Assembly: GCF_001025175.1 (NCBI RefSeq) | Contig: NZ_AP012324.1 | Location: 992,001 to 1,056,000, forward strand | Direction: 5' to 3' | Length of the DNA stretch: 64,000 nucleotides | From: Bifidobacterium breve DSM 20213 = JCM 1192 | GTDB taxonomy: Bacteria > Actinomycetota > Actinomycetes > Actinomycetales > Bifidobacteriaceae | Shown: positions 16,287 through 52,818 of the stretch, in pieces | Numbering within the stretch: position 1 is the first letter of the stretch | How the letters are laid out: every line of letters starts with the position of its first letter | The notes under the pieces: model-generated | Told to the model about the DNA's origin: nothing | Databases searched by the model: none | Seen by the model: the letters and a program-made list of their open reading frames with translations, nothing else | Translations under genes and position numbers: made by a program

Positions 16287-16571
16287 GTTGGGTGGCGTGG
16301 ACGGCCAGTCGAAAGGCATTATGCCGCTGCTTGCCGCGCGCGTCGCCAAGCGTACCGGTCGGCCGGTGGCCTGGCGTACGGTCGGCAAGCTCGGCGCGAC
16401 CGCCCGGCGCGTGCGCTACCGGATGATTGGCGATATCAACGACCGGCCGGACGTGCTGATCGTGTGCGTGGGCAGCAACGACATGCTCGCCGGATGTTCG
16501 GTGCGTGAAAATGGGCCGCTGACATCACCCCGGTGCTAGACGCGGCCAAGAACAAGGCCGGCAAGGTGGTG
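16287..16571 (+). pseudogene. SGNH/GDSL hydrolase remnant (truncated both ends, frameshifted)
   Basis: The frame from about 16287 reads VDGQSKGIMPLLAARVAKRT, then a Trp-Arg-Thr-Val-Gly-Lys-Leu-Gly-Ala block and DVLIVCVGSNDMLAG. The GSND is block III of SGNH hydrolases. After SVRE (about 16510) the frame is lost. Two bases later the protein resumes in another frame as WAADITPVLDAAKNKAGKVV, so GAAAATGG holds two extra A residues. The block I GDS serine and the C-terminal DxxH block are both missing. The remnant ends abruptly at about 16571, where reversed unrelated coding sequence begins. Confidence 0.75.
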
Positions 16572-16575
16572 CACT

Positions 16576-16710
16576 CTTTTGCTGGTCACTCCATCCACCA
16601 CTGCCGCGAAACCATCGGTGATGATCAGCCCGTCCTCATTGAGCGACTGGTCAGACCTCTTGCCTTGGCAGTGCTGTTCTGTGATGTGCATAGCGATTTT
16701 CGATTCCATG
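16576..16710 (-). pseudogene. N-terminal fragment of a PP2C-like or unknown protein, reversed
   Basis: On the minus strand an ATG at 16710 opens 45 codons including SLNEDGLIITDGFAAVVDGV followed by TSK. The NEDG...DGFAAVVDG pattern resembles the first Asp-containing strands of PP2C-type phosphatases (residues binding metal), although the family call is tentative. The reading frame stops being coherent where the SGNH hydrolase remnant on the opposite strand begins. It is the first part of a gene cut off by a deletion or inversion. Confidence 0.55.
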
Positions 16711-16780
16711 GTTGTCAGAACGCTTAAAGGCGTCTACTGGCTCATTATGATAGCAGCAGTGACATGCGGATATGGGGGGC

Positions 16781-16866
16781 GCTGTCTAAATGAAAGTGCA
16801 ACACCCTTTAGATTGGAGATTGTCCAGATAACCAGTGAAAGGGTGTTGCACTTTCATTTAGACAGC
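16781..16866. mobile_element. miniature element made of IS30-type ends (29-bp perfect terminal inverted repeats)
   Basis: Arms 16781-16809 and 16838-16866 are perfect reverse complements (GCTGTCTAAATGAAAGTGCA continuing ACACCCTTT). The first 49 bases, including TAGATTGGAGATTGTCCAG, match, in reverse complement, the right end of the IS30-type remnant at 35162-35469. The element has no coding capacity and is flanked by G-rich runs. It lies between the gene remnants and the MFS gene. The 86-nt RNA would fold into one long hairpin. Confidence 0.8.
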
Positions 16867-16924
16867 GGGGGGACGATTGAGAAGTCATAATTCCGTTACA
16901 CTAGCAAGGACGAGGAATTAGGGT

Positions 16925-18145
16925 ATGCGCGGATTATCGGTATTGAGCAGGGCGTTGCGATGGGCGTTGGTGGGTATGACGTTTTCGATGCTGTCCAACG
17001 CGATTTTCGAGGGGTCGGTGATTCCTTCGATTCTGATCGTCGGACTGCCGGCATGGGTGATCGCGTTCCGCAAGACGTTCAATCTGGTCATCGACTTCGC
17101 TTCTCCGGTATCCGCATGGATCGTGCAGCGGTTCGGCTCGTTCCGTTCGCTTGCGACCACGGAGGGCGTGGAAGGCGTACTGTGCTTGGCGGTCGCGCTG
17201 GTGCCCAACGGTTGGACGTATTGGAAGTGGCTGCTGCTGGCCCTGTCATGTCTGCTGCTGATGACCGGGCAGGTCATCGACGTGGCCTCCGAAGTGTTCG
17301 AGGTGGATGCGGCCGGCGACGACGATGACATGCTCGTCAAGTACAGCGGCTACGTCGCCGTGATTGCCAGCGTGGCCGGTACGTTGCTGGGCCAGGTTGC
17401 CGGATCGGCCTTGGCCAACGCCTCCATCATGGCCATGCTGCTCACCTCGTCGGCACTGTCATTTGCCTGCGCGCTGACGCGATTCCGCACCCGCAAGTTC
17501 ATGCCGGGATTCGGCAACGATGGTGCGGGCGGCGATGACGGCGACGGCTCCGCCGACGAATCCACGGCGGCCGACACGTCACACGCGCCGCAGCGCACTC
17601 CGGTCACCCGCTTGACCCGGATCAGACTGCTGATCGCATCGCTGCTGCTTGCGCTGATTCCGTCGCTGTGGGCAAGCTATGCGTTGCTGGGCATCGGCTC
17701 CCGGTACGGCAGCGATATGCTGACCGTGGTCTACGCATTCGGCGGCGTGGGCAGCATCATCGGATCGTTTGTCTACATGCGGCTCTCCGCAAAACTCGGC
17801 ATGCACGCCGTGTCCGCCATCGGGGCAATCGCCACGGCGATTTCCCTTGCCGCCGTACTGGTTCCCGAGTTTGCCGCGGTGTGCGTCGGATGGCTCATCA
17901 ACAACCTCGGCTATGGCCTGCTGGCGCATGGCGTGATCGTATCGCGACAACTGCTGCTGAGCGGTGGTGACCTGGCCAAATTCAGCGGCCGTGCCAGGTT
18001 CGCGTATGCGATCGGCGGTGCCGTCGGCACGTGGGGCGGTTGGCTCGGCTCCGCCCACTGGCAGATACTCGCCGTCGTGGCCCTGGTACTGTGCGCCGGA
18101 TTCATCCCGTTGCTCAAGGCCATGCCTGGCCCGGTACGGCACTGA
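16925..18145 (+). CDS. major-facilitator-type membrane transporter
   Basis: 406 residues, ATG at 16925 with CGAGGAATTAGG upstream. Ten to twelve hydrophobic helices are visible, split by a central acidic, Gly/Asp/Ser/Thr-rich cytoplasmic loop (about residues 195-220). The arrangement fits the MFS fold, but I see no clear subfamily motif. The short N-terminus and the motif DVASEVFEVDAAGDDDDM after helix 4 are distinctive. It sits just after a miniature element and decayed genes, so its original neighbours may have been lost. Substrate unknown. The gap 18146-18340 after it holds nothing I recognise. Confidence 0.7.
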   Translation: MRGLSVLSRALRWALVGMTFSMLSNAIFEGSVIPSILIVGLPAWVIAFRKTFNLVIDFASPVSAWIVQRFGSFRSLATTEGVEGVLCLAVALVPNGWTYWKWLLLALSCLLLMTGQVIDVASEVFEVDAAGDDDDMLVKYSGYVAVIASVAGTLLGQVAGSALANASIMAMLLTSSALSFACALTRFRTRKFMPGFGNDGAGGDDGDGSADESTAADTSHAPQRTPVTRLTRIRLLIASLLLALIPSLWASYALLGIGSRYGSDMLTVVYAFGGVGSIIGSFVYMRLSAKLGMHAVSAIGAIATAISLAAVLVPEFAAVCVGWLINNLGYGLLAHGVIVSRQLLLSGGDLAKFSGRARFAYAIGGAVGTWGGWLGSAHWQILAVVALVLCAGFIPLLKAMPGPVRH

Positions 18146-35161: not shown

Positions 35162-35469
35162 CCCCGTTGTCTATTTGTAAGTGCAGCATCCTTGTTTTCG
35201 GCTGATTCTGGCGGTTCGTCGGCGAATGCCTTGGCAGGGGTGCGCTAGCCGAGCACTCGCATGGGCCTGTTGTCGGTTTCGTCGACGGTCTCCTGCGGTT
35301 CGCGTGCCATGGAGGGGGCGACGGGCGTGCGTTTGGGCGGGTGGCGGCGGATCATGCCGTTCCCGTTCTCGTTGCCGCCGCGCCGCCACGAGCTGTACGG
35401 GTCGGCGAAATTGGCTATCTGGACAATCTCCAATCTAACGGGTGTTGCACTTTCATTTAGACAACGGGG
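35162..35469 (-). mobile_element. IS30-family remnant with both ends and a broken transposase C-terminus
   Basis: Terminal inverted repeats CCCCGTTGTCTA (35162-35173) and TAGACAACGGGG (35458-35469). The right end continues TGAAAGTGCAACACCC inward. On the minus strand a frame reads FADPYSSWRRGGNENGNGMI, then a PKRTPVAPS segment and ETVDETDNRPMRVLG-stop-RTPAKAFADEP, matching the end of IS30 transposases (ANPYSxWxRGxNENxNGLIR...NNRPRKxLGWKTPAE). The first three quarters of the transposase are gone, and the Trp codon after LG is a stop. The element cannot move by itself. It sits next to a toxin-antitoxin pair. Confidence 0.8.
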
Positions 35470-52730: not shown

Positions 52731-52818
52731 CGTTGGGCCGTGATGTTCTGTTCCCGGGACCGCTCCAGGCTGCTCGGGCCATGCTTTACGCCCGGGAACA
52801 GAACATCCCGGCCCAACG
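52731..52818. repeat. 28-bp inverted repeat between sufC and sufS
   Basis: Arms 52731-52758 and 52791-52818 pair over 28 bases with one mismatch (CGTTGGGCCGTGATGTTCTG against its complement, then TTCCCGGG), around a 32-base loop. No T-run follows. In RNA it would be a very stable hairpin inside the suf transcript, able to block exonucleases or act as a partial terminator. Confidence 0.85.

Follow-up and report, generated by a model that had tools for sequence, protein, structure and literature searches.

How a short element without a gene came to carry two perfectly complementary arms is the question raised by an inverted repeat in the genome of Bifidobacterium breve DSM 20213. The sequence analysed, here called the window, is a 64,000-nt stretch of contig NZ_AP012324.1 (positions 992,001 to 1,056,000, forward strand); coordinates refer to the window unless a genome position is given. 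Taken alone, the element is an ordinary relic. Its interest lies in a small set of comparable elements that suggests an origin for like-armed miniature elements in general: its right end looks nearer to a mirrored left end than to the usual right end of its relatives, which is a hint at how minimal elements arise.

Structure and boundaries of the window element

Inverted repeats with arms of at least 18 nt and spacing of at most 200 nt were listed across the 64-kb window, and the element ranked first of the 12 reported. Its arms are 30 nt long and 100% complementary (16780-16809 and 16838-16867), with a 28-nt spacer between them. The 29-bp perfect inverted ends described in the first-pass annotation (16781-16809 and 16838-16866) were recovered, and are extended to 30 nt by the pair C16780-G16867. 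Folded as RNA, the element gave -58.2 kcal/mol (z -14.2), and 0 of 200 shuffles were equally good. It has no coding capacity and holds no transposase within its 92 bp; the sole ORF of at least 60 aa that crosses it (16579-16890, 103 aa) extends into the flanks on both sides and has the look of a chance frame. Elsewhere in the window, a further near-perfect 28-nt inverted repeat (96%) was seen at 52731-52818, and inverted repeats of 18-20 nt, themselves repeated, form a cluster at 2635-2749.

The true ends were placed by comparing the flanks of related IS copies. The comparison covered 25 copies in which both ends were present, some of them internally deleted, and kept the seven miniature elements described below apart. 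In 8 of the 25 copies the trinucleotides 3 bp beyond the end motif were identical at left and right, against 0.73 expected (0 of 5000 shuffles as high). The offset was picked after a scan in which 5 offsets were combined with 4 lengths on 29 rows, among them the 7 miniature elements and a misplaced L018. Since these eight copies put the boundary 3 bp further out, the element probably spans 16778-16869 on the plus strand, 92 bp with its terminal triplets GGC...GGG. The flanks at the predicted offset read GGG on either side (16775-16777, low complexity, and 16870-16872), which fits a 3-bp target duplication weakly, because both triplets fall in a G run. No duplication was found at the chosen offset in the six other miniature elements. 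To the left, 16560-16690 resembles a minus-strand gene remnant, with longer open frames in other species (loci L091, L092 and L098), so the insertion appears to lie in a decayed stretch.

Descent from the left end of an IS30-type element

Related loci were gathered by searches of 112 genomes of the genus and fell into two groups of IS30-type elements. Type 1 ends are mostly GTTGTC or GCTGTC; type 2 elements mostly have GGGTTC or GAGTTC at the left end and GGATTC or GAATTC at the right. Full-length relatives of about 1.16-1.2 kb are present in the genus. The transposases of intact relatives are 350, 383 and 368 aa long, and these three full-length proteins scored 205-235 bits against an NCBIfam IS30 cut-off of 80. 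The window element shares its terminal inverted repeats with these autonomous relatives. Judged by sequence, it is, as had been proposed at first pass, a miniature derivative of an IS30-type element; having no transposase of its own, it is not itself a member of the IS30 family. IS30 is described as the commonest IS family of B. breve (PMC4007704).

The core of the element corresponds to the left, transposase-start end of the family. The closest match to it, identical at 71 of 74 nt and with the same variants GCTGTC and CCCTTT, is the left end of a type-1 element in another species (G108). Read along the plus strand, the left arm (16780-16809) is of IRL type and its outer 13 nt equal the G108 IRL; the spacer (16810-16837) is sub-terminal left-end IS sequence with 2 differences from G108; and AAAGGGTGTTGCAC (16838-16851) is an internal inverted copy of the terminal repeat that is found in the G108 left end too. 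Only then comes the outer right arm, TTTCATTTAGACAGC (16852-16866), which replaces the transposase start. It again equals the G108 IRL, and differs at 4 positions from the sole GCTGTC-type IRR seen.

A search with the terminal sequence found more copies than the two known from the window. Related ends lie at 22.2, 497.9, 728.4 and 1027.4 kb of the same genome and were detected, at E <= 0.001, in 20 of the 189 genomes of the family, so that the element is not one of just two copies at fixed loci, the outcome that the first-pass annotation had named as counting against it.

One of these related ends belongs to a remnant of about 306 bp on the minus strand (35163-35468), an internally deleted type-1 IS30 of GTTGTC type with its left end at the high coordinate (35465), its IRR at the low one (35166) and the C-terminal part of the transposase between. 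The element and its adjoining sequence had been thought to equal, in reverse complement, the right end of this remnant. The match is real in that TAGATTGGAGATTGTCCAG (16809-16827) adjoins the remnant end at 35465 as its reverse complement; it is inexact, with 3 differences in the shared 54 nt, and the end concerned is the left one. Two of the three differences (GCTGTC and CCCTTT) agree with the G108 left end. A second remnant of about 300 bp, at genome position 497.7 kb, also has GTTGTC ends, and its deletion junction differs from that of the 35-kb remnant. The size series by successive internal deletions that had been suggested was rejected on the ground that the 35-kb remnant and the window element have different variants, each set being shared with different relatives; the remnant at 35163-35468 is related to the element and is not its parent.

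Miniature elements in the genus

Among the fetched loci of the genus, seven distinct miniature elements of 60-89 bp were recognized, found in part through their similarity to the window element and to M2 and with a limited number of places scored per genome. The window element (M1, 86 bp between end motifs) looks left-left. M2, in the same genome (G000:C1:728380-728468, 89 bp), and M3 (G062, 89 bp), which adjoins IS debris, belong to type 2, and both arms of each are left-type. G094 holds two elements of 87 bp, of which M4a matches a left end from a sister genus and M4b is too diverged to call. M5 (89 bp) has true left and right ends and occupies one locus in G068, G081 and G059 (L057, L058 and L059), whereas both arms of M6 (G085, 60 bp) are nearest to right ends. 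The outer arms are thus alike in five of the seven elements, one having true left and right ends and one being too diverged to call, and six of the seven are nearly equal in length (86-89 bp).

Arms differing at no more than one of the outer 13 positions were found in 5 of 7 miniature elements and in 2 of 26 IS copies (Fisher p 0.0016), several of the IS copies coming from one genome (G000, G016, G085) and the 13-nt comparison being entered by hand, with G082, misaligned by an indel, counted as different. Adding two further IS copies gave 3 of 28 (p 0.003), and restricting the miniature elements to those made of left ends gave 4 of 6 (p 0.0096).

Both outer arms of M1 show 0 differences in 13 from the G108 IRL. 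The sole GCTGTC-type right end seen, at 1810544 in the same genome (GCTGTCTATTTAG), has 4 differences from the M1 arms and reads TATTTAG where both of these read TAAATGA. Within type 1 the distinction between left and right ends is blurred, because a GCTGTC left end in G081 (GCTGTCTATTTGA) carries TATTT (as TATTTGA), which is otherwise typical of right ends. Two IS, those of G007 and G091, are themselves like-ended, their outer 13 nt being identical at left and right, and a single position separates the right end of G007 from the M1 arms. In type 2 the ends differed at 5-8 of 13 positions in all 14 IS compared. M4a has the same IRL as a sister-genus IS; between the two ends of that IS a single outer position differs, and the arm type of M4a accordingly depends on one base. 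A variant taken to be private to both M4a arms was dropped, the sister-genus IS having the same IRL.

The M5 locus is 96-97% identical over 1.1-1.7 kb in its three species, and its left flank resembles a repeat that is present more than once in several bifidobacterial genomes and ends beside M5. No empty sites were identified for M2 or M5, parts of the M5 flanks being themselves repeated. In principle, M2 could be mobilized by the intact type-2 IS located at 474-475 kb.

A hairpin at the left end of the parent IS

In the parent elements the core of the terminal repeat, AGTGCAACACC, recurs in inverted orientation after 35-44 nt, only a few nt from the start codon of the transposase. With this inverted partial copy placed before the start codon, the parent left end can fold back on itself. 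In an alignment of 35 left ends, 83.9% of the cells of the outer stem paired, and 14 cells were changed on both sides compared with 4.6 in shuffles (0 of 500 as high), a count in which related sequences contribute cells. In the same 35 ends there was no excess over shuffles in the number of pairs with changes on both sides (46 of 500) or in the number of additional pair types (442 of 500). In nine type-2 left ends AAGTGC is replaced by AAGCGC, and eight of the nine also show a change to G at the internal partner; AAGTGC is kept at the right ends of all seven such IS in which that end was seen. Folding z was below -2 in 6 of 9 IS left ends and not in the other 3.

If formed, the stem would include the sequence upstream of the start codon of the transposase. 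In IS10 and IS50, terminal sequence pairs with the transposase start region in hairpins that protect against readthrough, and the bifidobacterial left ends resemble them in this pairing. By analogy, the hairpin may block translation of transcripts entering from outside. For IS10 and IS50 readthrough protection is the function of the structure, whereas the bifidobacterial hairpin is a candidate, and no promoter-like match was found at the single IS left end scanned.

Origin of the second arm

The origin that we favour, by a modest degree, is that the right arm of the window element was templated by the left one. The left end of an IS30-family element with an inverted partial terminal repeat would fold back as a hairpin; the right arm would be copied from the left through this hairpin, by template switching or by later correction of a quasi-palindrome; and the product, with two left ends, would then be inserted at its present site in trans by an IS30 transposase with duplication of 3 bp. 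What is observed is the starting material, namely the IS30 ancestry and the left-end hairpin of the relatives, and the left-like sequence in both arms of the product. Quasi-palindrome correction by template switching turns imperfect arms into perfect ones, the same outcome as here; for the window element it is suggested by the types of the arms. Templating is favoured because like arms recur in the miniature elements and are rare in the IS copies.

Ordinary internal deletion in a like-ended IS30, with loss from the internal repeat (GTTGCAC) to the right terminal repeat by way of short direct repeats, is the nearest competitor and somewhat short of an even chance. It is possible because like-ended IS such as those of G007 and G091 would give the same product, and it has precedents in M5, which joins a left end to a true right end at one locus in three species, and in the 497-kb remnant, whose junction reads as a microhomology deletion. 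Most IS would not serve as parents, however: in 24 of 26 copies (the misaligned G082 among them) the two ends disagree at two or more of the 13 outer positions, and the single right end of GCTGTC type that was seen does not resemble a left end. For type 2 the difficulty is greater, in that M2 and M3 are left-type in both arms and none of the 14 IS is like-ended. Deletion between the internal repeat and the IRR as the source of all the miniature elements was therefore kept for M5 and set aside for M2 and M3, with their left-type right arms.

An improbable origin, but one that deserves some weight, is that strand switching at a resident IS produced the element at its present site, without any transposition in miniature form: no second whole copy was found, the other like-armed elements show no duplication and M3 lies against IS debris. 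Against it, arm complementarity ends 1-3 bp outside the end motif in 7 of 7 miniature elements, as random rejoining would not do. Still less credit, very little indeed, is due to a local hairpin that serves neighbouring genes as a terminator, RNA-stability element or protein-binding site and is no relic of a mobile element. The fold is very strong and lies upstream of a plus-strand ORF at 16925, yet IS30 left ends elsewhere match it over 74 nt, scans of 16660-16960 gave neither a terminator-like nor a promoter-like match, and both flanks were found together only in this genome (at most 5 candidate places scored in each).

Arm templating, as the favoured origin of the window element, invites a broader and more doubtful proposal, to which we give perhaps a minority chance: that the conserved hairpin repeatedly seeds two-left-end elements of 86-89 bp by arm copying, the form of the MITE being set by a regulatory hairpin and not by random deletion. 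If true, this would be a concrete and testable route from IS to MITE, snap-back copying at the left-end hairpin, and would explain the near-equal length of six of the seven elements in the genus.

Mobility and spread

No second whole copy of the window element was found in 189 family genomes, this one included, in collections with one genome per species; it is for this reason regarded as a MITE-like relic and not as an active MITE family. No empty site was found among the candidate places scored, which numbered at most 5 in each genome. The genome has no intact type-1 transposase, and its only intact relative (474251-475297) is of type 2, with 46% identity and ends that differ from those of the window element. 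Mobilization in trans had been suggested at first pass; with no intact transposase of its type in the genome, the element is probably immobile here and inert in this strain.

The 86-bp element had no match in plasmids or phages, nor its exact core pattern in viral contigs, in collections that may omit near relatives. Outside the genus, the exact core pattern was found in 5 genome-contig records, none of Bifidobacterium, in a set from which near relatives may likewise be left out. Two of the five (L084 and L087) have long perfect arms. IS30 transposase matches occur in four of the five genomes, and none in the acidobacterial one. The Nitrospira element is a left-plus-right product and shares its right end with an IS30 remnant in the same genome.

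Comparison with known systems

The IS30 elements of Bifidobacterium have terminal repeats, sub-terminal sequence and possibly the 3-bp duplication in common with the window element, which differs in having no transposase, a left-like right arm and a length of 92 bp instead of about 1.16-1.2 kb. MITEPsy1, as described in PMC3189936, is 100 nt long, multicopy and seen to transpose in vivo. The two are alike in size, in the absence of a gene and in IS-like terminal repeats, while the window element is single-copy. In the account given in PMC3072357, MITEs are deletion derivatives or share terminal repeats only, whereas the second arm of the window element looks copied from the first. Among the matches listed for the open-access literature, no paper was found that described MITEs derived from IS30 in bifidobacteria or the formation of MITEs through the copying of an arm.

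Two further arrangements of type-1 ends were observed. At genome position 22.1 kb (L002) and at G108:C6:62.5 kb (L109), a type-1 left end breaks off at about 105 bp and is joined, at the identical point in both, to an inward-facing type-2-like right end, forming either a shared chimera or a shared insertion site. In L013 (G007:C21), a type-1 right end adjoins repeats that resemble a CRISPR array.
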